Of a stretch of DNA of 31,439 nt, positions 3,369 to 28,259 are shown piece by piece (within the stretch, counting starts at the first letter, position 1; each line of letters begins with the position of its first letter). The DNA lies in the IMG/VR virus record IMGVR_UViG_3300042881_002526, positions 1 to 31,439 of that record; one strand, written 5' to 3'. The stretch comes from a virus. The position numbers and the translations under genes are program-made. The notes under the pieces were generated by a model, which did no database searches, had not been told where the DNA came from, and saw only the letters and a program-made list of their open reading frames with translations.

Positions 3369-3475
3369 ACCGCTCGAACCGATGCGGGAGGGGCGGGTCG
3401 AATCGCTGCAGCCTGATGGCGTTTGACCGACCACACAGTCACGCGTGAGGCATCGCAAGTTTCGGAGGGGGGTAT
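3369..3475. other. Intergenic region with G-rich element, putative cos site
   Basis: This 107-bp gap lies between the packaging HNH gene and the small terminase. It has a G-rich stretch GGGAGGGGCGGGTCGAATC at 3386-3404 and ends in a strong ribosome site (GGAGGGGGG). From memory, HNH/P27-terminase phages often carry a similar G-rich element followed by TCGAATC here, where cos is expected. No termini can be read from the sequence. Confidence 0.35.
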
Positions 3476-4015
3476 ATGGGCAGTAGGGGACCGGCACCCA
3501 AACCGGCGGCCATCCACCTGCTGAACGGGAACCCCGGCCACCGACCCCAGGCTGCGCCCGGCAGCGTTCCTGCGCCGGCCACGGCGATTCCGGACGCACC
3601 CGAGTGGCTGCTGGGCGAAGCGCGGGCCGAGTGGGAACGAATCACGCCGGAGCTGGAAAAGCTCGGGCTCGTCTCGCACCTGGACGTGGCGCACCTGGCG
3701 GGCTACTGCCAGGCCTATGCGCTGATGGCCCGCACCGGTGCGGAAATCAAGCGGCTGCAGGGCGAGGGCGAAGTTGACCCGGTGATGCCGGATCGCATGC
3801 GCGGCCTCGTCGATCGCACGCCGTCCGGCTACAAACAGATCAGTGCGTTGATGCAGGTCTATAACCGGGCCTGCGAGTCGATGCGCCAGCACGCTGCGGA
3901 GTTCGGGCTGAGCCCGAGTGCACGCATGCGCGTGAAGCCCGACAGCAGTCAGGCCTCGCTGTTTCCGGACAGCGACCCGATGGACGCGTTCCTGAGGGCG
4001 ACCGGGGCCGCATGA
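3476..4015 (+). CDS. terS: Terminase small subunit, P27 family
   Basis: A 179-residue protein with the hallmark P27-type N-terminus SRGPAPKPAAIHLLNGNPGH, which is arginine/proline-rich and precedes the helical DNA-binding part. Then come PEWLLGEARAEWERITPELE and LGLVSHLDVAHLAGYCQAYA, both typical of Terminase_4 proteins. The C-terminus is a helical tail (SGYKQISALMQVYNRACESM) ending in LFPDSDPMDAFL. It recognises the packaging site and directs the large subunit to it. The ATG at 3476 has a very strong G-rich ribosome site. The end overlaps the large subunit gene by ATGA. About normal family length. Confidence 0.93.
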   Translation: MGSRGPAPKPAAIHLLNGNPGHRPQAAPGSVPAPATAIPDAPEWLLGEARAEWERITPELEKLGLVSHLDVAHLAGYCQAYALMARTGAEIKRLQGEGEVDPVMPDRMRGLVDRTPSGYKQISALMQVYNRACESMRQHAAEFGLSPSARMRVKPDSSQASLFPDSDPMDAFLRATGAA

Positions 4016-5679
4016 GCGACCGCACGACCGCCTACGCCCGCGACGTGGTCGAGGGCCGGGCGGTCGCGGGTCCGTGGGTGCGGCTGGCATGCCAGCGTCA
4101 CCTGCGCGACCTCGAGGAGGGCCCAGCACGCGGGCTGCGGTTCGACGTGCAGCTCGCCGCGCGGGCGATGGCGTTCATCGAATGCCTGACGCTGGCCGAC
4201 GGCCAGTTCGCGGGTGAGCCGTTCAAGCTCTCGCCGTTTCAGTCGTTCGTGGTGGGCAGCTTGTTCGGCTGGCTGGCGCCGGATGGTTTCCGCCGATTCC
4301 GCACGGCCTACGTCGAAATCGCGAAGGGCAACGGCAAGACACCGCTCGCTGCCGGCATTGCGCTGTACCTGATGCTCGCCGACGGCGAGGCGGGTGCGGA
4401 GGTCTACGCCGCGGCGGTCAGTCGCGACCAGGCGAAAATCTGCTTCCGCGACATCAAGCGTTTTGCCGAGGCCTCGCCCGCGCTGATGCGCCGGCTCGAG
4501 GTCAACGAACAGAACATCGCCTATCCGGCGACCGGCAGCTACATCCGGCCGGTGTCGTCGGAAGGGCGCGGCCTCGACGGCAAGCGCGTGCACGCGGCCG
4601 TCATCGACGAGCTGCACGAACACCCGACGAGTATCGTCGTCGACAAGATGCGCGCCGGCACGAAGCAGCGCCGCCAGGCGCTGATCTTCGAGATCACGAA
4701 CTCGGGCTACGACCGGCACTCGGTGTGCTGGGACCACCACGACTACAGCACGAAAGTGCTGCAAGGCGTGGTCGAAAACGACGCCTGGTTCGCCTATGTC
4801 GCGGCGCTCGACGAGGGCGACGACTGGCTGAACGACCCGACGTGCTGGGTGAAGTCGAACCCGAATCTCGGGGTTTCGATCACCGAGAAGTACCTGCAGG
4901 AGCAGGTCGCCGAGGCGCGCGACATGCCCAGCAAGCGCAACATCGTCGCCCGGCTGCTGTTCTGCGTGTGGACCGAGCAGTCAAGCGTGTGGATGCCGAT
5001 CGAGCACTGGGACAAGTGCGCCGTGCCGGTCGACCTCGAGGAGCTGCGCGGGCGGGAATGTTTCGGCGGCCTCGACCTCGCGTCGACGGCCGACATCGCG
5101 GCGTTCGTCCTGGTGTTCCCGCCGCTCGTCTACGGCGAGCGCTGGCACGTCGTGCCGCGGTTCTGGTGTCCGCGCGAGAACATCCGCCTGCGCGCCAAGC
5201 GCGACGGCGTGCCGTATGACCGCTGGGCCGACGAGGGCCTCATCACGGCGACCGAGGGCAACGTCATCGACTACGCCTTCATCCGCGACGCCATCCAGCG
5301 CGACGCCGAGCAGTTCCGGATCAAGGCCATCGCCTTCGATCGCTGGAACTCGACGCACCTGGTGCAGGAACTGCAGGCCGACGGCTTCACGATGATGGGA
5401 TTCGGCCAGGGCTTCGCCTCGATGGCGGCGCCCGTGCGTGAGCTGCAGAAATTGATCCTCGGCGAGCAGCTGGCCCACGGCGGGCACGCGGTGCTGCGCT
5501 GGATGATGAGCAACGTCGCCGCGCTGCAGGATCCGGCCGGCAACACGAAGTTCGACAAGTCGAAGTCGGGCGACAAGATCGACGGCCTCGTCGCGCTCGC
5601 GATGGGGCTCGGCATTGCAATCGCCGAAGAGGTCAAGGGACCGTCGGTGTACGAAACCCGAGGGGTGCTGACGCTGTGA
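4012..5679 (+). CDS. terL: Terminase large subunit (packaging ATPase/nuclease)
   Basis: A 555-residue HK97-type motor protein. The ATPase half has Walker A AKGNGKT at about 104-110 and Walker B AVIDELHE near 196-202. The nuclease half has GLDLAS at about 353-358, whose aspartate is the first metal ligand of the RNase H-like fold, a second conserved segment IAFDRWNSTHLV, and KIDGLVALAMGLG near the C-terminus carrying the last acidic ligand. It pumps DNA into proheads through the portal and cuts the concatemer. Full family length, no damage seen. Starts by ATGA overlap with the small subunit and ends with GTGA overlap to the portal gene. Confidence 0.95.
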   Translation: MSDRTTAYARDVVEGRAVAGPWVRLACQRHLRDLEEGPARGLRFDVQLAARAMAFIECLTLADGQFAGEPFKLSPFQSFVVGSLFGWLAPDGFRRFRTAYVEIAKGNGKTPLAAGIALYLMLADGEAGAEVYAAAVSRDQAKICFRDIKRFAEASPALMRRLEVNEQNIAYPATGSYIRPVSSEGRGLDGKRVHAAVIDELHEHPTSIVVDKMRAGTKQRRQALIFEITNSGYDRHSVCWDHHDYSTKVLQGVVENDAWFAYVAALDEGDDWLNDPTCWVKSNPNLGVSITEKYLQEQVAEARDMPSKRNIVARLLFCVWTEQSSVWMPIEHWDKCAVPVDLEELRGRECFGGLDLASTADIAAFVLVFPPLVYGERWHVVPRFWCPRENIRLRAKRDGVPYDRWADEGLITATEGNVIDYAFIRDAIQRDAEQFRIKAIAFDRWNSTHLVQELQADGFTMMGFGQGFASMAAPVRELQKLILGEQLAHGGHAVLRWMMSNVAALQDPAGNTKFDKSKSGDKIDGLVALAMGLGIAIAEEVKGPSVYETRGVLTL

Positions 5680-6968
5680 GCCTATGGGACCGGATCCGAA
5701 ACCTCGGCCGCGCGCGCCAGAACCCGGTGCGCGATTCGGCGGCCTGGGGCGGTCGGCAGGCGGGCGAGTGGGTCAATGCAGACAGCGCGATGGCGATCGC
5801 CGCCGTGTGGGCCTGCGTGCGCGTGATTTCGGAAACCGTCGCGGCCCTGCCGTGGCAGGTCATCGAGAAGGTGCAGACCCGCACCGGCACGCGCCGCGAG
5901 CGCCGGTCGGAATCAGATCAGGAGTGGATCCTCGCCACCCAGGCGAATCCCGAGCTCACCGCCTACGCCTTCCGTGAGACGCTCCTCGCGCACGCCCTGC
6001 TGTGGGGCAATGGCTACGCCGAGATCGAGCGCAGCGCCGACGGGCGTCCGCAGTGGCTGTGGCCGCTGACGCCGGATCGTGTGACGCCCAAGCGCTCGGC
6101 GACCGGCGGGCTCGAATACGAAGTGAACCAGGGCGGCGCCCAGGCGACGATTATTCCGGCGCGCGACATGTTCCACCTGCACGGGCTCGGCTTCGACGGC
6201 ACCGTCGGCTACTCGGTGATCGCCGTCGCCGCGCGCTCGCTGGGGCTGACGCTTGCGCTCGAGCGATTCGGCGCGAACTTCTTCGCGAACGGCGCGCATC
6301 CCGGCGCGGTGCTAGAACACCCCGGCAAGCTGTCGCCCGAGGCGCACGCGAACCTGTCGAAGTCGGTGCAGGAGCAGATCAGCGGCAAGAATGCATTGCG
6401 GCCGTTCATCCTCGAAGAGGGCATGAAGTGGCAGGCGATGACCATCCCGCCCGAAGAAGCGCAGTTCCTTGAGTCGCGGAAGTTTCAGGTGTCCGAAGTC
6501 TGCCGCTGGTTCCGGGTGCCGCCGCACATGGTGGCGGATCTGGACAAGGCGACGTTCAGCAACATCGAACACCAGGCGATCGAGTTCACGCAGACGACGC
6601 TGATGCCGTGGTGCCGGCGGCTCGAAACCGAGGCCGACATCAAGCTGTTCGGTGCGGTCAACCGCGGGCGGATCTACACGAAGCTGCAGCTCGCCGGGCT
6701 GCTGCGCGGTGACATCGCCTCGCGTTACTCGGCCTACGCGACCGGCCGGCAGTGGGGCTGGCTGAGCGCGAACGACGTGCGCGAGATGGAAGACATGAAC
6801 GGGGTCGCCGGCGGCGACGAGTACCTGGCGCCGATGAACATGGTCCCGCAGGACATGCTGCGCGAACTGGCCGAGGCGCCGGAACCGGCACCTGCGCCGC
6901 AGGACGAGCCGGAAGACGACAACGAAGACGAAGACCCGCCGTTGCGCGTGGTCGAGGGTGGGCGCTGA
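5676..6968 (+). CDS. Portal protein, HK97 family
   Basis: A 430-residue protein beginning at GTG 5676, overlapping the terminase stop. Family signatures are NADSAMAIAAVWACVRVISE near the N-terminus, ALLWGNGYAEIERSADG in the clip/stem part, and RKFQVSEVCRWFRVPPHM followed by KATFSNIEHQAIEFT in the stem and wing. The last 40 residues are very acidic and proline-rich (PAPAPQDEPEDDNEDED), a variable tail. Twelve copies form the vertex through which DNA passes and to which terminase and the connector bind. It overlaps the protease gene by TGATG. Confidence 0.94.
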   Translation: MSLWDRIRNLGRARQNPVRDSAAWGGRQAGEWVNADSAMAIAAVWACVRVISETVAALPWQVIEKVQTRTGTRRERRSESDQEWILATQANPELTAYAFRETLLAHALLWGNGYAEIERSADGRPQWLWPLTPDRVTPKRSATGGLEYEVNQGGAQATIIPARDMFHLHGLGFDGTVGYSVIAVAARSLGLTLALERFGANFFANGAHPGAVLEHPGKLSPEAHANLSKSVQEQISGKNALRPFILEEGMKWQAMTIPPEEAQFLESRKFQVSEVCRWFRVPPHMVADLDKATFSNIEHQAIEFTQTTLMPWCRRLETEADIKLFGAVNRGRIYTKLQLAGLLRGDIASRYSAYATGRQWGWLSANDVREMEDMNGVAGGDEYLAPMNMVPQDMLRELAEAPEPAPAPQDEPEDDNEDEDPPLRVVEGGR

Positions 6969-7663
6969 TGTACAAGCTGGTCGACAAGGGCAACAAGTCT
7001 GCCGAGCTGATGATCTACGACATGATCGGCGGCTGGGACGGCGTCACCGCGAAACGCGTGGCCGACGACCTGAAATCGCTCGGCCGGGTCGATGTCATCA
7101 ACGTGCGCCTGAACTCTTTCGGCGGCGAAGTCTTCGAGGGCTACGCCATCTACAACCAGTTGAAACGCCACCCGGCGCGCGTCGAGGTCGACATCGACGG
7201 CGCGGCCTGCTCGATCGCGTCGATCATCGCCTGCGCCGGCGACACCACGCGCATGGCGCGCAACGCGATGTACATGATCCACGATCCGGCCGGCTCGGCG
7301 TTCGGCTCGTCGAAGGACATGCGCAAGACCGCTGACCTGCTCGACCAGGTGCGCGAGCAGCTCGTCGAGACCTACGTGCAGCGCACAGGCCTGTCGGCCG
7401 CCGCGGTCAGCGACTACATGAGCGCCGAAACCTGGTTCAAGGCCGCCGAGGCCGCCGAGCTCGGCTTCGTCAATCAGGTCACCGATGAACTGAAGCTCGC
7501 CGCCTCGGCGGATCTCGAGCGGTTCCACAACGTGCCGGCCTGGGCGCGCCAGCGTGCGACGCCGAGCGCGACAGAACGGGCCGACCGCATCGGCGCCCGC
7601 TACGAGCGCCTGTCTGCATCCATCCTCGAGAAGACGGTGCGGATTGCGCAGCGCGCTCGGTAA
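6968..7663 (+). CDS. Prohead maturation protease, ClpP-like
   Basis: A 231-residue serine protease of the HK97 gp4 / ClpP (S14) type. I chose the ATG at 6968, which overlaps the portal stop; a longer frame upstream is only a shadow of the portal gene. The oxyanion-side motif is LNSFGGEVFEGYAIYNQL (48-65). The catalytic serine is in DGAACSIASIIACAGD (S82), and the histidine is H105 in MYMIHDPAG; the aspartate must lie further on. It cleaves the N-terminal delta domain of the capsid protein inside the prohead. The helical C-terminus after about residue 180 is variable. A terminator-like hairpin follows the gene. Confidence 0.93.
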   Translation: MYKLVDKGNKSAELMIYDMIGGWDGVTAKRVADDLKSLGRVDVINVRLNSFGGEVFEGYAIYNQLKRHPARVEVDIDGAACSIASIIACAGDTTRMARNAMYMIHDPAGSAFGSSKDMRKTADLLDQVREQLVETYVQRTGLSAAAVSDYMSAETWFKAAEAAELGFVNQVTDELKLAASADLERFHNVPAWARQRATPSATERADRIGARYERLSASILEKTVRIAQRAR

Positions 7664-7689
7664 CGAACCCCGCGACATCGCGGCAATTT

Positions 7690-7710
7690 GCCCGGCTCAG
7701 CCGGGCTTTT
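7690..7710 (+). terminator. Hairpin with T-run between protease and capsid genes
   Basis: GCCCGGC (7690-7696) and GCCGGGC (7700-7706) pair around TCA and are followed by TTTT, the shape of an intrinsic terminator. It sits 16 bases before the start of the major capsid gene, inside the late operon, so it may be a partial terminator or a 5' stabilising or processing structure for the abundant capsid message. Confidence 0.6.
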
Positions 7711-7726
7711 CATTTATGGAGGCTGT

Positions 7727-9085
7727 ATGAACGAACTACAGAAGCTACTCGCGCGCGCCTCGGACCTGCGCGCGCAGGTGGAGGAGATCCGTGCGACGGC
7801 CTCCGCTGCTGGCCGGGATCTCGACGAAACCGAGGAAGCGAACATCGACTCGATGCTCGACGACCTCGAGGCCGTGAACGCCAAGATCGCGCGCGTCGAG
7901 CGGATGGAAGCGCTGGCCGCGGCCAACGCGAACGGCGGCAACCGCCGCAGCGCGCCGGCCGCACCGGGTGCGGGCCTCGAGGCCTCTGGCCGTCCGGGGT
8001 CCATCCAGGCGCCGGTGTCTTCTGCGCAGGACCGCGCAAAGTGGGGCTGGCGCAACCTCGGCGAGTTCGCCTCGGCCGTGCGCAACGCCTCGGTCGGCGG
8101 CTCCATCGATCCGCGCCTCATCAACGCGCCGACCACGTGGGGCTCCGAGGCCGTGGGTGCCGATGGTGGCTTCGCGGTCCCGCCTGACTGGCGCAACACC
8201 ATCACCAGCCTGGTGATGGGCGAAGGCTCGATGCTTTCCATGTGCGACGCGATCCCGACGGCGAGCAACGCCGTGACGACGCCTGTCGACGAGGATTCGG
8301 CCTGGTCGAGCTCGGGCGGCATCCGCGTGTTCATGCGTGCGGAGGGCGGCACCAATGTCGCCAGCAAGCCGGCGCTGAAAGAAATCTCGGTGCGACTCAA
8401 CGAACTGTACGCGTTCGTGCCGGTCAGCGACGAGCTGCTCGAGGACGCACCGCTGCTGGAGAATTTCCTGACGGTCAAGGCCGCCGAGAAAATCAACTTC
8501 CGGATCAACGATCTGATCCTCAACGGCAACGGCGCTGGACAGCCGCTCGGCATCCTCAGCGCGCCGTCGGTCGTGACCGTGTCGAAAGAAAGCTCGCAGG
8601 CGGCCGCGACCGTGCTGGCAGCGAACATCGTCAAGATGTACTCGCGCATGCCGGCGTTCGCCCGCGCTCGCGCCGTGTGGCTCATCAATCAGGATGTGGA
8701 GCCGCAGATCCACCAGCTGGGCATGACCATCAGCAACCCGGCGGGCTCGCAGCTTTACGGCGGCGCGCCGATGTTCATCCCGCCCGGTGGCATGGTGTCG
8801 GCCCCGTCGGGCACGCTGCTCGGCCGGCCGATTGTCCCGACCGAGGCCTGCCAGACACTCGGCACGCGCGGCGACATCGTCCTCGCCGACCTGAAGGGCT
8901 ATTTCCTGCCCTACAAGGCCTCCGGCATCAAGTCCGACGTATCGATGCACCTGTACTTCGACAGCGGGCATACCGCGTTCCGCTGGACCTTCCGCTTCGG
9001 TGGCCAGCCGTGGCTCTCCAGCCCGATCGCCCGCCGCAACGGCACCAACACGTTGAGCCACTTCGTGGCCCTCGAAACCCGCTAA
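7727..9085 (+). CDS. Major capsid protein, HK97 fold
   Basis: A 452-residue capsid subunit. The ATG at 7727 has GGAGG at 7718-7722; a longer frame starts in the hairpin and is unlikely. Residues about 1-65 are a coiled-coil delta (scaffold) domain with heptads (LLARASDLRAQVEEI, LDDLEAVNAKIARVERME). A glycine/alanine-rich linker follows (about 66-105), where the protease should cut. The HK97 core starts near 135 with TTWGSEAVGADGGFAVPPDW, and SELYAFVPVS-like strands (VRLNELYAFVPVSDELLED) and ILNGNGAGQPLGIL are typical of the P and A domains. The end, YFDSGHTAFRWTFRFGGQPW, is also typical. It forms the icosahedral shell. Confidence 0.95.
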   Translation: MNELQKLLARASDLRAQVEEIRATASAAGRDLDETEEANIDSMLDDLEAVNAKIARVERMEALAAANANGGNRRSAPAAPGAGLEASGRPGSIQAPVSSAQDRAKWGWRNLGEFASAVRNASVGGSIDPRLINAPTTWGSEAVGADGGFAVPPDWRNTITSLVMGEGSMLSMCDAIPTASNAVTTPVDEDSAWSSSGGIRVFMRAEGGTNVASKPALKEISVRLNELYAFVPVSDELLEDAPLLENFLTVKAAEKINFRINDLILNGNGAGQPLGILSAPSVVTVSKESSQAAATVLAANIVKMYSRMPAFARARAVWLINQDVEPQIHQLGMTISNPAGSQLYGGAPMFIPPGGMVSAPSGTLLGRPIVPTEACQTLGTRGDIVLADLKGYFLPYKASGIKSDVSMHLYFDSGHTAFRWTFRFGGQPWLSSPIARRNGTNTLSHFVALETR

Positions 9086-9097
9086 GGAGGCTGACCC

Positions 9098-9595
9098 ATG
9101 AACCCGACCCACCTCCAGCTCGTCGACTTTGCGAAAGTCGTCGTTGGCTGCTCTGCGGCGGCCCTGACCGGCACGGCCGGTGACGGCGACTACGTCAGCC
9201 TCAAGGGCTACAGCCACGTGACCGTGCTGCTCCAGGTCAACAACGCGACCACCGTCACCGGTGGCGTTGTGACTCTGAAGCAGGCGACGGCTGTCGCCGG
9301 CACCGGCGAGAAGGAGCTCGCCTTCTCCCTGATGTACGCGAACACCGACGTCGCGACCAGCGACACGCTGGTGGCCACGGCAGTGACGTCCAACACTTTC
9401 ACGACCTTGACCACCAACGATCGCGATCTGCTGTATGTCATCGAAATCGATGCGGAGCAGCTGGACCGCGACGGGGGCTTCGACTGCGTCCGCGTCGACG
9501 TCGCGTCGATGGCCAACGCCGTCGGCACGGTGCTCTACGTCTTGCACGGCACCCGCTACGCGCCCCCGCTCGCGACTGCCGCGATCACGGACTAA
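9098..9595 (+). CDS. Putative head decoration / virion structural protein
   Basis: A 165-residue protein with a good ribosome site (AAGGAGG) twelve bases after the capsid gene. It is beta-rich and threonine-rich: SHVTVLLQVNNATTVTGGVV, then TLVATAVTSNTFTTLTTNDR and ELAFSLMYANTDVATSD. No cysteine-rich or enzymatic motif is seen. Proteins of this kind directly after the capsid gene usually decorate the shell or assist head completion. I recall similar proteins in phages of Gram-negative bacteria annotated only as structural. It ends at a second hairpin. Virion role is inferred from position and composition. Confidence 0.65.
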   Translation: MNPTHLQLVDFAKVVVGCSAAALTGTAGDGDYVSLKGYSHVTVLLQVNNATTVTGGVVTLKQATAVAGTGEKELAFSLMYANTDVATSDTLVATAVTSNTFTTLTTNDRDLLYVIEIDAEQLDRDGGFDCVRVDVASMANAVGTVLYVLHGTRYAPPLATAAITD

Positions 9596-9606
9596 GTGTC
9601 GACTCT

Positions 9607-9634
9607 GCGCCCGGGGTGACCTGGGCGCGCTTTT
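9607..9634 (+). terminator. Hairpin with T-run after the decoration-type gene
   Basis: GCGCCCGGG (9607-9615) pairs with CCTGGGCGC (9620-9628) with one G-T pair, around a GTGA loop, followed by GC and TTTT. It is terminator-like but lies inside the late operon. Together with the hairpin at 7690 it brackets the capsid and decoration genes, so those two may form an abundant, separately ended or stabilised message. Confidence 0.6.
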
Positions 9635-9646
9635 CCGGAGGTCAGC

Positions 9647-10075
9647 ATGCTGCTGGAAGATACAGTCGACGGCAGTCGGCAGGTCAAGGGCACGTCGGGG
9701 GCGATGCATACGCTCGAGCAGGGTCTTGGTGCCGGTGAAGAACTCGCGTCGTCCGCTGCGAATAGCGTTACGCGTGTCGTGCAGGCGTGCAACGTTTCAA
9801 TCATCAGCAAGACGACAACGGTCACCATCGGTGGCGGCGCGGCAAATGACACGCGACTGATGGGCGTTCTGATCAGCGCAGCGCTCACCGGAACTTGCGT
9901 GATCGCGGGTTTTGCTGATTCTGACGGGGTCGCGCAATCCTACACGCTACCGGCCGCCTCAGTCGGCTTTCGTGATTTTCTCGGCGCATTGAACAGGGCA
10001 GGCGCGCTGACCATTACCTGCAGCAACGCGGCCGACGATAACCTGGTCGCGGTGTTCTGGCGTCCGGCGGCGTAA
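9647..10075 (+). CDS. Hypothetical virion-region protein
   Basis: A 142-residue protein with a CCGGAGG ribosome site before the ATG at 9647. The sequence is beta-rich: VQACNVSIISKTTTVTIGGG, LMGVLISAALTGTCVIAGFA and ALTITCSNAADDNLVAVFW. This reads like a small jelly-roll or Ig-like domain and not an enzyme. It lies between the capsid block and the beta-helix protein, with two bases between it and the next gene. Its base composition is visibly lower in GC than the capsid gene, as is the beta-helix gene, so the pair may have entered together. Function unknown; a head-surface or fibre-associated protein is the best guess. Confidence 0.6.
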   Translation: MLLEDTVDGSRQVKGTSGAMHTLEQGLGAGEELASSAANSVTRVVQACNVSIISKTTTVTIGGGAANDTRLMGVLISAALTGTCVIAGFADSDGVAQSYTLPAASVGFRDFLGALNRAGALTITCSNAADDNLVAVFWRPAA

Positions 10076-10077
10076 CG

Positions 10078-11682
10078 ATGGCCACAAAGTACATCGACAA
10101 TCGCCTTACCGACGGCGCAAACGATGGCAGCAGTCCAGCGAATGCGTGGCGCTCGCTGCTGGCGGCGCAACTCGGCACCATTAGTGCGGGGGACGTGGTG
10201 GAGGTCGCTGCGGGTAGCGGGCCGTATTACGAGGCGACGAATGTAAACGCGAATTTGCGCGTCAATGCAACCGACATTTCATTCGATGCCGCGAGTCGTC
10301 AAATCAGGACGGCTGGCGCGGTTTCTTTCTCCGCGTACAACACAGCGGGGCAGATCATCCGAGTGTTTGGGTCGGCGCTCAACGACGGTCAATATACGGT
10401 CGCGAGCGCGTCGGCAACCCAGATCACGCTATCAGCTACCAACACGCTGCGCGACGAAGCCGCGGGTGCGCGCGTCCGCGTGACGGACATAACAGCTGCG
10501 AACGCCAGCGGCAATCGTCCGTTCGTGTTCGACCAGGGCCGCAACGGCAGCAACGGAAACCCGATAATCTGGAATTTTAACGGCTGCGAAATATCCGCCG
10601 GCTGGCCGCTGACCAACGGGACGCACAAATGGGTGCGCAGCGCGGCAAATCCGAATGAATGGTATGCGCTCCGCGCGGACGGGTCGAACCCAAGCCTGAA
10701 CAAGCCAGAATCCGCCGTGGTGAACGGACATTTTATGTGCGCCGCGGCGGGCGACGCTGACCGCAATCGCGGCACCGTCGGCGCGCTGACATTCGAGAAG
10801 CAGTACGGATACGGGGACAACGACGGTCTCGGCTTCTCGACGGTTTATGTGCGCGCGCCTGGGGATCCTATCGCGCTAGGCTGGTCGATTGTGGTCGGAC
10901 AGATCCATTGCGTGATGTATCAGAATTGGGGCGACCACACGTTCAGAGGCGCGCGGTTTTCATTCGGCTGTGGCAATGCAAACGGAACAGTCAACGGGGC
11001 TTGTGTTCTTGCACGGGGCCTTCGCTTCAGGTTTGAACGCTGCGTCTTCATGTATGCCGACGGACACGCATTTGAAGCAAACGCCAGCGGCCCGCACATC
11101 CTCGATCACTGTATCGGGTACTGGTGCGGCCATCGTTTCCTCGTGACGGGCGCCACGAACATGACGGTTTCGGCCATCAATTGCGTGGACTGGGGCGCTC
11201 ATCTGTTCTGTTTGATCAGCACCAATGCGGATGCAACAACTACAGTGAACATTCGCGGCTGCATCAGCGCCAACAACGAAGCAGGCGCTATTGATAAAAA
11301 AGATGCCGACGCGGTTTTGCAAGAATCGCATAACCTGTGGTATCCGCGCATGACCGCCGTGGGCGGTGCTCTGGGTTACATCAGCCCGGCCAACTGGGCC
11401 AAAACATCGCCTTTCGATTTGCCGTCGTACACGGCAACTACTGAGTCAGATCAGTCAGTTCTTGAAAACCCATTGTTCCAGGCTGTGAGCGACACGGATT
11501 TTGACGCCTGCAACTGGCGCTTGAAGCCAGGGTCTCGCGCAATTGGACGCGGCCAATTCAACGAGTCGACTGGCGCGGCGACGACCGACTACCAGGGCCA
11601 GACCATCACCAAGCGCTACAATATCGGAGTCGATCAGACCCAGTATGTCCGGCCGCTAATTCTTGGCGCGCGGCCGACCTGA
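10078..11682 (+). CDS. Beta-helix (pectate-lyase-like) protein within the head cluster
   Basis: A 534-residue protein that looks like a right-handed parallel beta-helix. The start is the signature of such proteins (TKYIDNRLTDGANDGSSPAN, AWRSLLAA), resembling DUF1565 and pectate-lyase-like repeats that begin with 'duration of display' strands. The middle has aligned short strands with turns rich in N, G and C (RFERCVFMYADGHAFEANAS, HILDHCIGYWCGHRFLVTG, TVNIRGCISANNEAGAIDKK). The end LKPGSRAIGRGQ is the usual last-rung motif. Such proteins bind or cut polysaccharide in tailspikes and in head fibres. Its place between capsid and connector genes is unusual, and its GC content is visibly lower than its neighbours. 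Likely surface decoration or glycan-binding; activity unproven. Confidence 0.75.
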   Translation: MATKYIDNRLTDGANDGSSPANAWRSLLAAQLGTISAGDVVEVAAGSGPYYEATNVNANLRVNATDISFDAASRQIRTAGAVSFSAYNTAGQIIRVFGSALNDGQYTVASASATQITLSATNTLRDEAAGARVRVTDITAANASGNRPFVFDQGRNGSNGNPIIWNFNGCEISAGWPLTNGTHKWVRSAANPNEWYALRADGSNPSLNKPESAVVNGHFMCAAAGDADRNRGTVGALTFEKQYGYGDNDGLGFSTVYVRAPGDPIALGWSIVVGQIHCVMYQNWGDHTFRGARFSFGCGNANGTVNGACVLARGLRFRFERCVFMYADGHAFEANASGPHILDHCIGYWCGHRFLVTGATNMTVSAINCVDWGAHLFCLISTNADATTTVNIRGCISANNEAGAIDKKDADAVLQESHNLWYPRMTAVGGALGYISPANWAKTSPFDLPSYTATTESDQSVLENPLFQAVSDTDFDACNWRLKPGSRAIGRGQFNESTGAATTDYQGQTITKRYNIGVDQTQYVRPLILGARPT

Positions 11683-12293
11683 TGCACCTGACCCTCACCA
11701 CGCCACCCGCGCAACCCGCGCTGGCGACGGCCGACGCGCGCGCGCACCTTCGCCTGGCGGCCAGCGAGGACTCGTACCTCGAGGGGCTGATCGCGGTCGC
11801 CACGGCCTGGGTGGAGTCTTGGCTGTGCAGGGCGCTGGTCAACCGGACCTATGCCTACAAGGTCGACTCCTTCCCGGGTCAGGCGTGGTTCCGGAATCCG
11901 CCGCGGGCCGACTGGGTCTACGAGCTGATGCTGCCGTACCCGCCGCTGGCGAGCGTGACGTCTATCCAGTACATGGACCCGGATCAGGCCACGCAAACTC
12001 TTTCCGCCTCGGTCTACGAAGTCGTCCAGGGCGACACGCCCGGCCGCGTGCGACTGAAAGTCGGCCAAGACTGGCCCGCCACGCTCGACCATCCGGACAG
12101 CGTCACCGTCACCTACGTGGCCGGGTTTGGCCCGAGCGACGCCAGCGTGCCGAGTTCCATCCGCCACGCCCTGGCGCTGCTCGCCGGGCATCTATACGAA
12201 CACCGCGAGGCGAGCTCGCCGCTCAGCTTGAGCACGGTGCCGTATGGCATCGAGGCGCTGCTGATGCCGTTCCGGGTGTTCACCCGGTGGTAA
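11682..12293 (+). CDS. Head-tail connector protein, HK97 gp6-like
   Basis: A 203-residue adaptor whose ATG overlaps the previous stop (TGATG). Family signs are the start LTLTTPPAQPALATADARAH followed by LRLAASEDSYLEGLIAVATA and WVESWLCRALV, the helical part that docks on the portal. Then come beta strands with YPPLASVTSIQYMDPDQATQ and VTVTYVAGFG, and the C-terminal helix IRHALALLAGHLYEHREASS. This is the typical layout of the phage connector gp6/gp15 family, and the ring sits below the portal. It overlaps the next gene by TAATG. Confidence 0.88.
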   Translation: MHLTLTTPPAQPALATADARAHLRLAASEDSYLEGLIAVATAWVESWLCRALVNRTYAYKVDSFPGQAWFRNPPRADWVYELMLPYPPLASVTSIQYMDPDQATQTLSASVYEVVQGDTPGRVRLKVGQDWPATLDHPDSVTVTYVAGFGPSDASVPSSIRHALALLAGHLYEHREASSPLSLSTVPYGIEALLMPFRVFTRW

Positions 12294-12619
12294 TGCGCGC
12301 CGGCGCGCTGTGCCACGACCTGGTGATCGAGCAGGCCACCGAAACGCGCGACGCCCACGGCCAGGCGGTGCAGACCTGGGCCGAGTTCGCCACCGTGCCC
12401 GGCTCGCTGCAGCCGATCACCGGCCGCGAGATATTTGCGAGCGCGCAGCCGCACGGCGAGATCACCGCTCGCGCGCGGATCCGTTATCGGGCGGGTGTGA
12501 CGGAAAAAATGCGGATCGCCTTCGAGGGCCGGATCTACGCGATCACGGCCGTCATCGACCGCGACATGAAACACAGCGAGCTCGAGCTGCTGCTCAGCGA
12601 AGGGCTCGTCGAGGGATAG
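12293..12619 (+). CDS. Head closure protein (SPP1 gp16 / HK97 gp7-like)
   Basis: A 108-residue protein. I chose the ATG at 12293, overlapping the connector stop; the much longer open frame upstream is only a shadow of the connector gene. The sequence MRAGALCHDLVIEQATETRD, AHGQAVQTWAEFATVPGSLQ, PITGREIFASAQ and the late RIAFEGRIYAITAVIDRD is the classic small beta-barrel head-tail joining family (Phage_H_T_join). It closes the DNA-filled head and forms the platform for the tail. Directly follows the connector gene, as expected. Confidence 0.9.
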   Translation: MRAGALCHDLVIEQATETRDAHGQAVQTWAEFATVPGSLQPITGREIFASAQPHGEITARARIRYRAGVTEKMRIAFEGRIYAITAVIDRDMKHSELELLLSEGLVEG

Positions 12620-12621
12620 GC

Positions 12622-12972
12622 ATGCCGTACAGCACGACCGCCAAGAACACCATGCTCAACGCGCTGGCCGCGAACCGGGTGCGCCTGCACTCCGGCGATC
12701 CGGGCGCAGCCGGCACCAGCAACCAGCTCGGCGCGGGACTGGAAACCGCGACCTTCGCCGCCGCAGCGAGCGCCGAGCGCGCGCTGTCGAGCGACGTCAC
12801 CGTGACCGGCCTCGCGGCCCTGCAGACCGTGACCTGGTTCAGCGTGTGGAATTCAACGGGCCCCACATTCGAGGGCTCGGGCCAGATCACCACCGGCGAC
12901 ACGTCGGCCTCGGCGTCCGGTTCGTTCACGCTCAAGGCCACGAACACCAAGCTGCGAATCACGGACTCCTGA
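12622..12972 (+). CDS. Phage virion protein of the 'tail-fibre-like' accessory family
   Basis: A 116-residue protein starting at ATG 12622 two bases after the previous stop. The beginning, STTAKNTMLNALAANRVRLH, followed by SGDPGAAGTSNQLGAGLE, is a pattern I know from many tailed phages, where it is labelled structural or tail-fibre-like without proof. The second half is all short beta strands (TVTWFSVWNSTGPTFEGSGQ, SGSFTLKATNTKLRITD). It opens a block of six accessory virion-type genes between the head closure gene and the gp10-like gene. The full-length frame is intact. Role is inferred only from family habit and position. Confidence 0.65.
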   Translation: MPYSTTAKNTMLNALAANRVRLHSGDPGAAGTSNQLGAGLETATFAAAASAERALSSDVTVTGLAALQTVTWFSVWNSTGPTFEGSGQITTGDTSASASGSFTLKATNTKLRITDS

Positions 12973-12973
12973 C

Positions 12974-13435
12974 ATGCCTGATAATGTTGCAATTACGCCA
13001 GGCGTCGGCGCGCTGGTCTCGACGCGCGAGGTCACCTATTCCGGCGACGTCACGAAAATGCAGGTCGTGGGCCTCGCCACGCTCAGCGGGGCCGATGACG
13101 CGAAAACGCCGGCGGACGTGTCGCCAGACAACCCGCTGCCGGTCGCAGCATACGGCGAACTCATCGAGGCCATCGAGGCGCAGCGGTTCGCGCTTCAGGC
13201 GTTGACGCGAACCATCGGGCAGTCGATGCCGGATGTCGCCGGCCGTCTCCGCGTGGCCATTGACGCGATCAGCGCAAGCTTGACTCTCGCGACCATCACG
13301 ACCGTGGGCACAGTGACGACGTGCTCGACGTTATCGAACCAAACCAATATCGGCGGCCTGGCCGCAACGGAACAGATCCCCTCCCTCATGCGCGTGGCGG
13401 CTGACAGCCTGCGACGAAATATTGCGGTGACTTGA
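12974..13435 (+). CDS. Putative virion structural protein
   Basis: A 153-residue protein that starts PDNVAITPGVGALVSTREVT and continues YSGDVTKMQVVGLATLSGAD, a pattern I have seen in phage structural proteins of unknown position. The centre is a helix (LIEAIEAQRFALQALTRTIG), followed by repeated TTVGTVTT-type strands and the end VAADSLRRNIAVT. The helix could trimerise and the strands could form a fibre or collar. No enzyme motif is seen. The start is one base after the stop of the previous gene, and the next start is one base after its own stop. Confidence 0.6.
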   Translation: MPDNVAITPGVGALVSTREVTYSGDVTKMQVVGLATLSGADDAKTPADVSPDNPLPVAAYGELIEAIEAQRFALQALTRTIGQSMPDVAGRLRVAIDAISASLTLATITTVGTVTTCSTLSNQTNIGGLAATEQIPSLMRVAADSLRRNIAVT

Positions 13436-13436
13436 T

Positions 13437-14876
13437 ATGCCTACTACGAACGGCAATCGGAAAATACTCGACCTCAAGCGGTGGGAGTTTTGCACGCCCG
13501 CGCCCGCAGCGACGGCAGCGGCGCAGTTCATCGTTTCGTCGCGTCACTTCCGACAGCAGCAAATGCTGGTGCAGTCCGCCACGGCTGCGCTGCTGTACAA
13601 CCCGCTGGAGGATGCATGGATAAACCTGCCGTCTCCCGCACTGGCCGGCACGTTCGCGGCAGGGGCTTGCGGTGTGGCAACGGCAGTGGGGCCATCGGGC
13701 ACGGCGACGGCGGGCACCACGTCGACCATCACGACGAACCTTACGCTGGCCCGCGACCTGCGCGGCTACAGAATCCATATCACGGGCGGCCCGAATGCGG
13801 GCGTGACCCTCGTTATTTCGTCGAACACTGTCGGCACGAATTCGGTGATCACAGTGCCGACGCAGGCCAGTGCTTTCACGGCTTCGACGACTTACCGCCT
13901 GCTCACGCCGCGCTGGTATGTGCTGAACGCGATTACAGCAGCGGGCACGACAACCGCCGCCGTTTTCCGCTTCTACGATTTCGCGACCAATGCCTGGACT
14001 TCGGCGGAAACTGGCGCAACGGACGGTATTGCTCCGGCGGCTGTCATCGGCACCGACTCCAAGCTCCTGTCGACCCCGTCGTGGATTGACAGCGACTATG
14101 TGGCGTTTGCTACCGGCACGGCGACGGCGGGTGGCGCGTCCACGCTGACCAACAGCGGCAAAAACTGGACCGTGAACAGTTGGACGAACTATCAGATCCG
14201 CATCGTGTCGGGCACGGGCGCCGGTCAGATCCGCACTATCGCCAGCAACACGGCGACCGTGATCACAACCTCTGCGGCGTGGACGACGCAGCCTGACGCC
14301 ACCTCGGTTTACAGCATCGAGGGCAACGACGATTTCATTTACTACATGGGCAGCGGCGCGGTCACGCTGTTCCGGTACAGCATTTCGGCGGGCACGTGGA
14401 CCACCCTAACGCCGGGTGTGGCGCGTGGTGGCGCGCCGGGCACCGGCATGAGCGGGCACTGGGTGCATAGCGCGACGGCCGCCGACTGGACAAACGAGAA
14501 CGCCATTCTCAACGGCCGATATTTTTACAGTTTCCGTGGCGCGGCGGGCGCGCTGCTCGACCGTTACGACATCGCCCTCAACACGTGGGCAGCGATTACC
14601 TACGCCCCGGCCGCCGAAACCTTCACCACCGGCAGCAAGTACGCCTACCTCAAAGATCGCATCTACCTGCAGAAAGACGCCACAGGCCGATGGTTTGCCT
14701 ACGACGTGGTGGAAAACGCGATGCAGCCGTGGTCGACGATGACCTACACGCAGGGCGCGGCGGTGCTTGGCGATACCGCGTTCGACATCGAGTACCGAGA
14801 CGGTGCGACCGAGGTGGACTACATCTACATGCTGCTCAACACGTCGACCGTGCTGCTGCGCGCGATGGTGATCTGA
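13437..14876 (+). CDS. Large repeated-domain virion protein, possibly a beta-propeller adhesin
   Basis: A 479-residue protein. Two related segments can be seen: residues about 85-155 (GTATAGTTSTITTNLTLARD, then YRIHITGGPNAGVTLVISSN) and about 225-300 (GTATAGGASTLTNSGKNWTV, then YQIRIVSGTGAGQIRTIASN). This duplicated unit is common in phage surface proteins. Around them are kelch-like blades with W and Y at strand ends: LLYNPLEDAWINLPSP, FRFYDFATNAWTSAE, FRYSISAGTWTTLTPG, LDRYDIALNTWAAITY, and FAYDVVENAMQPWSTM. A propeller carrying two inserted domains is likely. Probably a host- or surface-binding virion protein; whether on head or tail cannot be told. Confidence 0.65.
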   Translation: MPTTNGNRKILDLKRWEFCTPAPAATAAAQFIVSSRHFRQQQMLVQSATAALLYNPLEDAWINLPSPALAGTFAAGACGVATAVGPSGTATAGTTSTITTNLTLARDLRGYRIHITGGPNAGVTLVISSNTVGTNSVITVPTQASAFTASTTYRLLTPRWYVLNAITAAGTTTAAVFRFYDFATNAWTSAETGATDGIAPAAVIGTDSKLLSTPSWIDSDYVAFATGTATAGGASTLTNSGKNWTVNSWTNYQIRIVSGTGAGQIRTIASNTATVITTSAAWTTQPDATSVYSIEGNDDFIYYMGSGAVTLFRYSISAGTWTTLTPGVARGGAPGTGMSGHWVHSATAADWTNENAILNGRYFYSFRGAAGALLDRYDIALNTWAAITYAPAAETFTTGSKYAYLKDRIYLQKDATGRWFAYDVVENAMQPWSTMTYTQGAAVLGDTAFDIEYRDGATEVDYIYMLLNTSTVLLRAMVI

Positions 14877-14878
14877 CG

Positions 14879-15040
14879 ATGACCGTCGAACAACTGATGG
14901 CGCTGGTCCGGGCCCGCATCGTCTACCTCGGTTCTCTGCGCACGGCGGCGGAGCGCCTGGGTGACTCAAGTGAGCTGGCTCGCCTGGATGCGGAACTCGC
15001 GGAGTGCCAGTCAACGCTGAGTACCCTGCTGGCGGTCTGA
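14879..15040 (+). CDS. Small hypothetical protein
   Basis: A 53-residue protein, ATG at 14879 two bases after the preceding stop. It is helical: TVEQLMALVRARIVYLGSLR and LGDSSELARLDAELAECQST. It resembles short proteins adjacent to structural genes in other phages, but I cannot name a family. The spacing of a few bases on both sides and good codon use suggest it is translated. It might be a chaperone or small virion component. Confidence 0.55.
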   Translation: MTVEQLMALVRARIVYLGSLRTAAERLGDSSELARLDAELAECQSTLSTLLAV

Positions 15041-15041
15041 C

Positions 15042-15503
15042 GTGTCCCTACTGCTGCTCCTCCAGTCGGCCGCCGCCGGCGTCAAGGAAGGCAGCGGCCT
15101 CGTCTCTGGCGCCGGCAGCCTCGCCGGTGATGGGTTTGTCGTGCGCGATGGCGCCGGCATCGTCGGTGGCGTCGGCAGCCTGGACGGGCGCGGCGAGGCC
15201 CCGCAACAGGGCTCGGGCATTGTCGGTGGCGTCGGCAGCCTGGAGGGGCGCGGCGAGGCCCCGCAACAGGGCTCGGGCATTGTCGGCGGCGTCGGCATCC
15301 TGGAGGCGGAGGGTGCGCGCAATCGCGAAGGATTTGGCACCGTCTCGGCCGTGGGCAGCCTCGCCGGCGACGGCAGGGGCTCGCGCCCGGCGCGCATGGT
15401 GTTCGCGCTCTCCGAGCGCGCAATGGTGTTCCAACTGCGGCGGCGCTCGATGGTGTTCGAGCTCGCAAGCCGCTCGATAAACTTCGTCCTCGAGGCCGCC
15501 TGA
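15042..15503 (+). CDS. Glycine-rich tandem-repeat protein in the accessory virion block
   Basis: A 153-residue protein from GTG 15042, one base after the preceding stop. After a hydrophobic start (SLLLLLQSAAAG) come five units of 20 residues, each built on the pattern GxG(I/L)VxGxGSLxGxG; units 2-3 (GSGIVGGVGSLEGRGEAPQQ) are nearly identical. After residue about 117 there is a second, shorter repeat of nine residues: ARMVFALSE, RAMVFQLRR, RSMVFELAS, RSINFVLEA. The glycine repeats suggest a beta-solenoid or flexible spine, and the MVFxL repeats four edge strands. No function known. The gene ends at the TTG start of the next gene, so translation is likely coupled. Confidence 0.65.
   Translation: MSLLLLLQSAAAGVKEGSGLVSGAGSLAGDGFVVRDGAGIVGGVGSLDGRGEAPQQGSGIVGGVGSLEGRGEAPQQGSGIVGGVGILEAEGARNREGFGTVSAVGSLAGDGRGSRPARMVFALSERAMVFQLRRRSMVFELASRSINFVLEAA
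15061..15360 (+). repeat. Five tandem 60-bp repeats inside the glycine-rich gene
   Basis: The DNA repeats with a period of exactly 60 bases. Units 15181-15240 and 15241-15300 differ at only three positions; the flanking units at 15061, 15121 and 15301 are more diverged but keep the GTCGGCAGCC-type end. The two near-identical units point to a recent duplication, so copy number may vary between relatives. Confidence 0.85.
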
Positions 15504-15815
15504 TTGGACATCATCAACGAGGGCACGACCTGTTACCTCAACGTGTCGTTCCTGGACAAGACCGGCGCAGCTGCGATGCCGTCGACGGTCGCGTACCGCA
15601 TCGACTGCCTCTCGACCGGCACTTCGGTGCGCGCGACGACAAGCGTCACCCCGGGCACCACCGTCGAGATCGTGCTGTCGGCCGCTGACAACGCGATCCT
15701 GGCCAATCTCCCGTTCGAGCGCCGCCGCGTGACAGTCGAGGCGACTTACAGCGGATCACAGGCCGTCAAGAACCAGTACGACTACCAGGTGCGCAACCTG
15801 AGCGCGGTGTCGTGA
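15504..15815 (+). CDS. Putative Ig-like / baseplate-like virion protein, TTG start
   Basis: A 103-residue beta-sandwich-like protein: DIINEGTTCYLNVSFLDKTG, VAYRIDCLSTGTSVRATTSV, VEIVLSAADNAILANLPFER and VTVEATYSGSQAVKNQYDYQ. I recognise this pattern as a phage accessory virion protein. The start is TTG at 15504, directly after the TGA of the preceding gene, with no better start; the conserved INEGTTxYLNVSF begins three residues in, so a later start would truncate the domain. Ends with a GTGA overlap to the gp10-like gene. Role inferred. Confidence 0.65.
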   Translation: MDIINEGTTCYLNVSFLDKTGAAAMPSTVAYRIDCLSTGTSVRATTSVTPGTTVEIVLSAADNAILANLPFERRRVTVEATYSGSQAVKNQYDYQVRNLSAVS

Positions 15816-16363
15816 GCGCCATTCGTATCGAGGGCCTGGCCGAGCTGCAGGCGCGGCTGAAGACGCTGCCGACGAAGATCCAGCGCCGGGCACTGAACGC
15901 CGCGATGCGGGCCGGCGCGCGCGAGATCGTCATCGAGGTCAAGGCACGGGCCCCGGTCGACACCGGGGCGCTGAAGCGCAACGTCATCGCGAAGCGCGGG
16001 CGCCGGCAATTCGACCAGGGCCTCGCAGGCCGGCAAATCATCGGCGTGCGGCACGGCAAGGCGCGCACCGAAGCCACGACCTACACGGTCAAGGGCAAGA
16101 AATTCACGAACCGGCTGACCGCCTACGACCGCAAGGGGCAAGACCCGTTCTACTTCCGGTTCCAGGAGCTGGGCTACACCGCCGTCGGCCGACGCAAGGC
16201 CGCGAACCGCAGCGAGCGCGGCAACCGCAAGGCCGGCAACCCGAGTTACGGGCGCTTGATCCCGGGTAAAAAGTTCCTGGCCGGCGGCCTCGCCGCGGCC
16301 GGCCCGCGCGCGCTGAACACGATCAAAACGCGCCTCGCCGCCGAGCTCGAGCGCCTCGCATGA
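15812..16363 (+). CDS. HK97 gp10-like head-tail/tail completion protein
   Basis: A 183-residue basic protein with the family signature EVKARAPVDTGALKRNV (residues about 44-60), preceded by IEGLAELQARLKTLPTKIQR and a helix RRALNAAMRAGAREI. The C-terminal part contains FYFRFQELGYTAVGRRKAAN and IPGKKFLAGGLA, where short family members have H/P-containing variants. About 30 residues longer than many family members because of a lysine/arginine-rich insertion near 80-130. It helps join tail to head. GTG start overlaps the previous stop, and the end overlaps the next gene by ATGA. Confidence 0.9.
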   Translation: MSAIRIEGLAELQARLKTLPTKIQRRALNAAMRAGAREIVIEVKARAPVDTGALKRNVIAKRGRRQFDQGLAGRQIIGVRHGKARTEATTYTVKGKKFTNRLTAYDRKGQDPFYFRFQELGYTAVGRRKAANRSERGNRKAGNPSYGRLIPGKKFLAGGLAAAGPRALNTIKTRLAAELERLA

Positions 16364-16713
16364 GCGCCGAAACCGCGCTGAAGTCGACGCTCGATGGCGC
16401 CGCCAGCGTCACCGCGCTCGTGTCGACCCGGATCTACCCGGACGCGCGGCCGCAGGATGACGTCCTGCCGGCGATCGTCTACACGCGCGACACGACTGAA
16501 TACGTGCCGACCATCCACGGCACGATCGCGCTCACTCGCGCGCAGCTCTCTGTCCTGTCGTTCGGCGTCACCCGAGCCGCGGCTGAAGCCGTGGCCGACG
16601 CCGCGCAGACCGCCGTCATGGCGGCCGGGTTTCTGATGGTCAACCGCGCGGGCGATTTCGATGTCGATACGCGCACCTATGTGGTCACGCTCGCGATTGA
16701 GCACTTGAGTTAG
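16360..16713 (+). CDS. Tail terminator / completion protein, DUF3168-like
   Basis: A 117-residue protein beginning SAETALKSTLDGAASVTALV, followed by STRIYPDARPQDDVLPAIVY and TRDTTEYVPTIHG, a strong match to the DUF3168/gpU-like tail terminator pattern. The second half alternates strands and a helix (AAEAVADAAQTAVMAAGF). It caps the tail tube and stops its growth, so the tail can attach to the head. Lies between gp10-like and tail tube genes, in the standard order. Confidence 0.88.
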   Translation: MSAETALKSTLDGAASVTALVSTRIYPDARPQDDVLPAIVYTRDTTEYVPTIHGTIALTRAQLSVLSFGVTRAAAEAVADAAQTAVMAAGFLMVNRAGDFDVDTRTYVVTLAIEHLS

Positions 16714-16725
16714 ATAGGGGGATTC

Positions 16726-17373
16726 ATGGCGAAAGTATGGTCAGGCGTTCAGATCGCGGTTCAGTCGGCGCTCGCAACGGCACTGCCGATCAGCGCGATC
16801 ACGAAGGCAAATCCGGCGGTCGCAAGCTACACCGGCACCGATCCGGTCAACGGCGACTATCTGTATCTGTCGTCGATTCAGGGCATGTACCAGCTCGACG
16901 AGCGGGTCGTGCGCGCGGCGAATGTCAATGGCGCCGGCAACACGGTCGAGCTCGAAGGCGTCAACTCGACTGCCTTCGACACGTTCACCTCGGGCAACCT
17001 GCAGGTGATCACGTTCGGCACCACGCTGTCGCTCATCACCGACATCACCGTGTCGGGCGGGGAGTTCGAAGACATCGACACCACGACGATCCACGACCTG
17101 GTGCGGGTGGTGCAGCCCGGTGTCGCGAGCAATCTCAACTTCGCCATGACCGCGCAGTGGGATCCGGCCTCGACCGCCCTGCAGGCGCTGAAGACCGCCT
17201 CGGACGGCAAGTCACGCCGCGCGATCCGGTTCACGTTCGCGGACGGCACGAAGTGGGTCACCACCGGCTTCATCGGCTGCTCGCTGGCGCCGACCGGATC
17301 GGCGCAGCAGCTCGTGACGACGCCGATCACCATCAAGGCGAACGCCAACGCGTCGCAGGCGTACGCGACCTGA
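16726..17373 (+). CDS. Major tail tube protein
   Basis: A 215-residue tail tube protein with ATG at 16726 and a purine-rich leader (ATAGGGGG). It starts AKVWSGVQIAVQSALATALP, then YTGTDPVNGDYLYLSSIQGM; the middle has DITVSGGEFEDIDTTTIHDL, the usual 'gene V-like' tube motif, and the end is RAIRFTFADGTKWVTTGFIG followed by TITIKANA-like strands. Hexamer rings stack to form the tube. Position between the terminator and the G/GT chaperone genes supports the call. Overlaps the next gene by TGATG. Confidence 0.9.
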   Translation: MAKVWSGVQIAVQSALATALPISAITKANPAVASYTGTDPVNGDYLYLSSIQGMYQLDERVVRAANVNGAGNTVELEGVNSTAFDTFTSGNLQVITFGTTLSLITDITVSGGEFEDIDTTTIHDLVRVVQPGVASNLNFAMTAQWDPASTALQALKTASDGKSRRAIRFTFADGTKWVTTGFIGCSLAPTGSAQQLVTTPITIKANANASQAYAT

Positions 17374-17690
17374 TGGCACTCGACAAGTCGACCATCGTCC
17401 GGCCGGTTCTGCGCAAGGAGACCGTCCCGGTCGAGACCTTGGGCGGCGAGATCATCCTGCGTCAGCTTACGCTGTCGGAGATGCTCAAGCTCGGCAACGC
17501 GCGGCACAGTCAGGACGACGAAATCGCGCAGGTGCTTGCCTGGTGCGCCATCGACGAGCAGGGCCTGCCGCTGCTGAGTCTCGACGAGTGGCAGGCCTGG
17601 GGGGCGTCGTGCCTCGCTGAATCGCTGCAGCTTTACGAGGTCGTGATCAAGCTCACCGGCCTCGAAAAAAAAACGACACCGACGGGCTGA
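17373..17690 (+). CDS. Tail assembly chaperone G
   Basis: A 105-residue protein, ATG overlapping the tube gene stop. LRKETVPVETLGGEIILRQL, TLSEMLKLGN and DEIAQVLAWCAIDEQGLPLL are typical of gpG-type chaperones, which hold the tape measure protein before tube assembly. It ends LEKKTTPTG, where the two lysine codons lie in a nine-A run. This is the shorter, non-shifted product; the shifted product reads on as the GT fusion (see 17373-17977). Confidence 0.85.
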   Translation: MALDKSTIVRPVLRKETVPVETLGGEIILRQLTLSEMLKLGNARHSQDDEIAQVLAWCAIDEQGLPLLSLDEWQAWGASCLAESLQLYEVVIKLTGLEKKTTPTG

Positions 17691-17977: not shown

Positions 17978-17980
17978 CCC

Positions 17981-28198: not shown

Positions 28199-28228
28199 TT
28201 CGGCCGTCCTTTCCGCAGTGATGTGGCT

Positions 28229-28257
28229 TTAATACCGTTTTGCTGCGGAAAAATCAA
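28229..28257 (-). promoter_or_regulatory. Candidate leftward promoter of the regulator operon
   Basis: On the minus strand TTGATT (28257-28252) and TATTAA (28234-28229) match -35 and -10 at four of six positions each with a 17-bp spacer. The -10 is flanked by a perfect 9-bp inverted repeat, TTTCCGCAG (28210-28218) and CTGCGGAAA (28243-28251). The start would lie about 25 bases before the repressor ATG. Confidence 0.5.
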
Positions 28258-28259
28258 GG

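Follow-up and report, generated by a model that had tools for sequence, protein, structure and literature searches.

The host range of tailed phages is usually attributed to tail fibres and spikes. In the virus HFTV1, according to excerpts of its description (PMC12494034), a turret on the capsid is formed by a base hexamer (TBP, gp30) and a trimeric head protein (THP, gp31), the latter with a galactose-binding-like domain and, after it, a polysaccharide deacetylase domain. In turrets of this type the base is inserted in the hexamers of the capsid and bears the head protein. The head spike of RcGTA consists of a base, Rcc01079, and a fibre, Rcc01080 (excerpts of PMC7296036 and PMC10218006); the base attaches by its N-termini (excerpts of PMC7296036). 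In spikes of this type the fibre is a binder of capsule polysaccharide. T4 Hoc, T5 pb10, SPP1 gp12 and phi29 gp8.5 have little role in stability and boost cell-surface binding via carbohydrates, as put in part of PMC7602432. The locus analysed here comprises two adjacent plus-strand genes, p142 (142 amino acids, 9647-10075) and p534 (534 amino acids, 10078..11682, starting two bases past the p142 stop), in the IMG/VR virus record IMGVR_UViG_3300042881_002526, which was analysed entire (31,439 bases, hereafter “the window”). As a preliminary description of this DNA had stated, both open reading frames (ORFs) lie between a decoration-type gene and the connector gene. Both products are probably located on the virion, and with modest confidence p142 and p534 are read as an exchangeable, head-mounted base-plus-spike cassette acting on host glycans, in which the base/spike pairing and the glycan activity are putative.

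The slot between the decoration and connector genes has exchanged its content. Its fixed left flank (9098..9595, plus strand, 165 amino acids), directly after the capsid gene, is presumably a decoration gene, as judged by its position; it was 64-76% identical in close relatives and matched phrog_28483, a PHROG of unknown function. The fixed right flank is a gp6-like head-tail connector gene (11682..12293, plus strand; PF05135; phrog_442, E 5e-27). Relatives were taken from the best 80 of 168 viral-contig stretches for the capsid and from 80 of 103 for the decoration gene. The window and contig L005 were 81% identical over 3439 to 9708, with no identity thereafter; identity stopped at 9703 and returned at 11668 for L010, at 9593 and 11679 for L006 (to which L166 is 99.97% identical), and at 9593 and 11775 for L008. 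L006 and L008 were 72% identical up to L006 position 2280, showed no identity within the slot, and were 98.2% identical over 1306 nt starting three bases ahead of the connector start. Over 15494-18163, L164 shared 92.7% identity with the window, and over the connector 75.5%; the end of its slot encodes 70 residues, 51 of them 45% identical to the deacetylase-type cargo of L008. The exchange is recent for the L006/L008 pair and undated for the window itself, so that, of the earlier wording “recently acquired”, acquisition by exchange stands for the window and recency for L006/L008. No slot variation was seen within the phage's own population, where contig L002 is identical to the window; L002 is also identical across the head genes; of its 152 mismatches, 150 fall towards the 3' end of the tape measure gene (19076-19645), making it a second local variant whose tape measure ends differently.

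The size of the slot was also variable. In 46 non-redundant loci in which a decoration gene and a following connector or head-completion gene were found by models (six entries, namely duplicates of the window's group, L006 and L010, were left out), the gap ranged from 6 to 5038 nt, a rough figure because a missed connector would lengthen it; it was shorter than 150 nt in 13 loci and longer than 600 nt in 23. Two stretches, L104:1426-5108 and L123:95-3920, have a decoration-like gene directly followed by a protein of more than 1000 amino acids, with a Phage-tail_3 match in L104, and the label “decoration” may not fit every locus. No such exchange slot was described in the titles and abstracts of the literature searched (one library; the conserved N-terminal peptide of p142 described below was not a search term).

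Base composition also set the slot apart. GC at fourfold-degenerate sites was 0.707 for p142 (92 sites) and 0.718 for p534 (291 sites), versus 0.925 for 16 core genes (3117 sites; Fisher P 1e-9 and 7e-23, respectively, with sites treated as independent), and the lowest of 64 core windows reached 0.895. The lower GC reported earlier is therefore borne out. Orthologues of flank-like GC in most relatives would have spoken against acquisition; the slot held unrelated genes instead, again of lower GC. The large gene was below its own flanks in the window and in 4 of 4 relatives (L005, 0.67 vs. 0.915; L006, 0.69 vs. 0.92; L008, 0.84 vs. 0.94; L010, 0.77 vs. 0.94). Values for the small genes were variable (L005, 0.93; L006, 0.80; L010, 0.85; L008, 0.875), and in L005 the small gene therefore appears native-like and only the large one foreign. 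Outside the slot, the lowest GC in the window (0.546) was found at 28001-28500, after the tail genes.

A hairpin followed by four T (9606..9635, plus strand; stems 9606-9615 and 9620-9629) had been taken as the left edge of the insert. It is real (-21.5 kcal/mol, z -1.7 vs. shuffles) and terminator-like, and was absent from the terminator scan listing. Four relatives with different cargo also have a hairpin directly 3' of the decoration gene, with differing stem sequences; it therefore belongs to the end of the decoration gene and does not mark the insert, and a mobile-element edge was ruled out on the same ground. The sequence boundary, codon 21 of p142, lies some 75-100 nt downstream of it. 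Repeats flanking the insert were limited to short imperfect pairs. A moron is a gene with its own promoter and terminator; here the sole hairpin at the slot is upstream, and no sigma-70-like promoter was found in 7600-16000 (1.3 expected by chance; other promoter types were outside the scan).

The first 21 residues of p142 (9647..9709, plus strand) form a tag that recurs in L005, L006 and L010, with 14 positions invariant in the four phages; a scan of viral contigs confirmed it in five (L002, which is the window's phage, L005, L006, L166 and L010). Between the window and L005 the tag differs by 11 nucleotides and no amino acid, and across six pairs pN was 0.05-0.20 versus 0.46-0.73 for pS: the tag is under purifying selection. 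L008, which carries another small gene, lacks it. Beyond the tag, the small-gene bodies of L005, L006 and L010 have a common domain with the signature YETVAAS, encoded in 59 viral loci; in 54 of these (five duplicates dropped) it is mostly C-terminal in short proteins with highly varied N-termini. The following gene was found in 40 of the 54 loci. Some of these genes are beta-helix-type, in L229, L230 and L244 (by Pfam or the cap model described below) and in L231 (by relation to p534), or lectin-type, in L276 and, below the cut-off, L262; others are portal or other structural genes.

Several kinds of gene take the place of p534. The L006 (557 amino acids) and L010 (492 amino acids) cargo proteins have a common C-terminal cap, and the latter matches Pfam Beta_helix (3e-12); the L005 cargo gene is cut by the contig end, and its product looks by eye like a beta-helix. 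In L006, a short ORF between the small gene and the cargo (L006:2644-2811) includes a signal-peptide-like stretch and is possibly a remnant of an earlier cargo gene. L008 has a 138-amino-acid gene and a 404-amino-acid gene with a Polysacc_deac_1 match (4e-10, residues 172-282 of 404); p534 has no such domain by Pfam. More distant slots encode a PhoD phosphatase (L125) and a ConA-like lectin (L120, L013). A tally was made of 64 slot proteins: 48 of 63 listed, 8 from the window, L005, L006 and L010, and 8 from L012, L013, L019, L072 and L175. Laminin_G_3 was found in three and SASA esterase, polysaccharide deacetylase, Cthe_2159 and Beta_helix in one each, so that glycan-type families accounted for up to 7 of 64 slot proteins, versus 0 of 64 flank proteins if a marginal match (Spherulin4, 8.9e-4) is set aside. 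These controls, the first 64 of 100 candidates outside the slot, were of at least 130 amino acids (the slot set mostly at least 100) and belonged to terminase, portal, protease, tail and other families, including one fibre family (Gp80).

Conserved ends were also found on other slot proteins. In four distant phages the last slot proteins (L012:11873-13249, L013:9823-11433, L146:8317-9585 and L147:4663-5727) have unrelated bodies and near-identical Arg-rich C-terminal ends of 34-45 residues (78-95% identity in five of six pairs; the sixth, L013/L146, has 149 residues in common). Looser Arg-rich ends occur in L118, L126, L161 and L178. Conserved ends on changing bodies fit docking peptides; alternatively, they could be retained joins, scars of a mere recombination hot spot that collects neutral passengers. 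The short slots in 13 of 46 loci and the foreign composition of the cargo genes would suit a hot spot. This is nevertheless very unlikely: the amino acids of the tag are kept while silent sites change (11 vs. 0 in the window and L005), which makes retained joins less likely, glycan-type families are commoner in the slot than in the flanking genes, and the reading frames are intact.

A single clear homologue of p534 was found, in L231, and surfaced only via a search with the base domain of the relatives. The protein, encoded directly behind a small gene and running off the contig, is about 38% identical to p534 over about 390 residues (E 6.9e-61). The L231 capsid protein (phrog_1357) has no similarity by blastp to that of the window (phrog_10). 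This pair type therefore occurs with unrelated capsids, and probably moves between them. In L231 fourfold GC was 0.54 for the small gene and 0.71 for the p534 homologue, versus 0.85 for the capsid gene and 0.83 for a neighbour of 212 amino acids. Among the other genes that follow YETVAAS-type small genes, that of L244 matches the C-terminus of p534 (E 0.005); its own C-terminus matches the L006/L010 cap (3e-27), and it has a sub-threshold Beta_helix match. Another phage, L223, has a beta-helix-like gene 50% identical to the first 30 residues of p534, upstream of a gene that by eye resembles the head completion gene; the stretch L223:1152-9074 also holds, by eye, a Ser-Pro-repeat gene and several glycosyltransferase-like genes ahead of the latter.

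Other searches with p534 gave little. No phage match reached 1e-5, the weak ones being mostly cyanophage fibres (E 0.8-4) and one Klebsiella phage (E 7); none was found in plasmids, in the Protein Data Bank (PDB) or in the five genomes behind loci L175, L176, L178, L179 and L199, and in viral contigs only two were found, both of the window's phage. A motif scan of viral contigs gave eight stretches, one of the same phage and two with beta-helix-like proteins. Two weak partial matches were found in 399 genomes of one order, and two partial matches to a two-row profile in 369 genomes of one class, near propeller-like repeats by eye. A C-terminal cap shared by p534 was considered and dropped: the pattern, counted in 8055 ORFs, had been fitted to p534, L006 and L010.

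A simple hydropathy rule called signal-peptide-like starts in 4 of the 21 large genes that follow small genes of the YETVAAS type (L005, L010, L229 and L263) and in 1 of 54 small genes (L259). Together with the dispensability of the cargo (slots below 150 nt in 13 of 46 relatives), these starts would suit a late enzyme off the virion, a moron-like passenger of the late operon, that is exported or released at lysis and degrades the exopolysaccharide of the dying host or alters its surface. Such a role is unlikely for the locus as a whole and possible for phages with signal-bearing cargo. It is countered by p534 and the L006 and L008 cargo, which lack such starts, by the conserved terminal peptides on changing bodies, which suit docking better, and by weak matches of p534 (residues 88-132, 0.0014) and its L231 homologue (5e-4) to phrog_1236, annotated “head protein”.

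Several results weigh against a head-mounted base and beta-helix spike. The chief of them is the signal-peptide-like starts, which are unexpected for proteins that assemble in the cytoplasm. A comparable pair in L229 (with a NosD-type match) lies between terminase and portal, away from the decoration gene. The p142 body (9710..10075, plus strand) has no detectable relation to the YETVAAS base domain of the relatives; kinship was rejected at rank 258 among 2005 entries, of which nearly all were shuffles, and an hhalign probability of about 0.2%, and the E-values of full-length p142 against the relatives stem mostly from the tag. The cap model built from L006 and L010 finds L229 and L244 and misses p534. 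No Pfam family matched p534 at E up to 5, beta-helix families (PF13229 and relatives) included, and AlphaFold2 models of p534 alone or with one homologue were unusable (mean pLDDT 31.0 and 33.3). In favour of the earlier label “pectate-lyase-like beta-helix”, residues 5-67 resemble part of the tail fibres of cyanophages (pairwise E from 6e-4 to 5e-7; database E at least 0.8), and the beta-helix-type protein of L244 matches the C-terminus of p534. A beta-helix is still, judging from its sequence, very probably the fold of p534. The earlier reading as a “head fibre or glycan-binding module” gains plausibility from the location, from the nature of the genes that replace p534 and from the likeness to HFTV1 and RcGTA.

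The slot is part of an otherwise ordered set of plus-strand genes: terminase (start 4012), portal (5676), protease (about 7022, by position and frame), HK97-type major capsid protein (7688; PF05065, E 2e-44), then, past the slot, head completion protein (12293; PF05521), a gene at 12670 with core-like fourfold GC (0.90), neck gene (15812), tail terminator (16360), tape measure (17981) and central fibre J (21091). Among 34 capsid relatives from named bacterial genomes, the best were those of Burkholderiales, Ideonella, Pelomonas and Rhodocyclaceae; the prophage-like locus L175 is likewise from Burkholderiales. p534 is not among the tail-tip genes, where J lies. A second pair, p153 (12974-13435) and p479 (13437-14876), both on the plus strand, occupies another variable slot, downstream of the head completion gene, so that the window may have two pairs of base and cargo. 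This pair is absent in L006 and L008, replaced by other genes in L010 and kept in L164 (p153 70% identical), and has relatives in cyanophages; p479 has a weak kelch match, the N-terminus of p153 resembles YETVAAS-type small proteins of L253 and L276, and fourfold GC (0.82 and 0.81) departs less than in p142 and p534. At 15156-15306 a tandem repeat (60-base unit, 2.5 copies) lies in a Gly-rich frame that closes with Arg-rich repeats; the proteins of L010 and L164 in the matching region are Ala/Ser-rich. The location of the p142/p534 slot immediately before the connector gene, and of p153/p479 between the head completion and neck genes, would agree with a spike carried by the neck or connector, in the manner of a collar or neck fibre, and not by the capsid surface. 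We consider this quite improbable, as the L231 pair follows capsid genes, the L229 pair lies between terminase and portal, and the parallels from HFTV1 and RcGTA are, in the published excerpts, capsid-borne.

In the proposed head-mounted cassette, p142 would be the base, anchored to the virion through its conserved 21-residue N-terminus, and p534 the beta-helix spike, binding or cutting host surface polysaccharide and so helping to bring the phage to the cell before the tail comes into play. Recombination in the conserved flanking genes would swap the cassette, whole or in parts, for other glycan-type cargo. A broader and more tentative proposal is a portable system, in which phages with unrelated capsids would swap two-gene base-plus-spike cassettes via short conserved docking peptides; beta-helices, deacetylases, esterases, phosphatases, lectins and propellers would then be interchangeable on the head, with up to two slots per genome. 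Should glycan-acting spikes indeed plug into a slot on the head, this would be a further place for host range and biofilm penetration to evolve, the 21-residue peptide would be a candidate handle to mount other proteins on the capsid, and a function would be suggested for many unannotated genes between capsid and connector in environmental phages.

Among known systems, the cyanophage fibres (S-CAM9, S-PRM1 and S-8S56) resemble p534 in residues 5-67, two of them with 40-53% identity across 36-63 residues, but are long tail fibres of 820-920 amino acids in tail-fibre gene clusters. T4 Hoc, T5 pb10, SPP1 gp12 and phi29 gp8.5 are decoration proteins or head fibres that bind carbohydrates at the head surface, but have other folds, and the excerpted account describes no exchangeable two-gene cassette. 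The cassette may work like the RcGTA head spike and the HFTV1 turret. The N-terminal attachment of the RcGTA base recalls the conserved N-terminus of p142 on changing bodies, for which capsid binding is putative; in contrast, the RcGTA spike genes lie outside the main structural cluster (excerpts of PMC8601537), Rcc01080 is not described as a beta-helix in the excerpts, and the base set had no sequence match in PDB. HFTV1 is an archaeal virus, no exchange slot appears in the excerpts of its description (PMC12494034), and p534, unlike THP, is not a deacetylase; a PDB search with the L008 cargo listed only a bacterial deacetylase and found no sequence relation to HFTV1. The likeness lies in the plan, a small capsid base with a larger glycan-acting head protein, which p142 and p534 would share. 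The L008 pair, one gene of 138 and one of 404 amino acids, the latter matching a deacetylase in its C-terminal part, is built like the HFTV1 pair as given in those excerpts, and it is this outline, with the HFTV1 and RcGTA precedents, that suggests reading p142 as a base and p534 as its spike.
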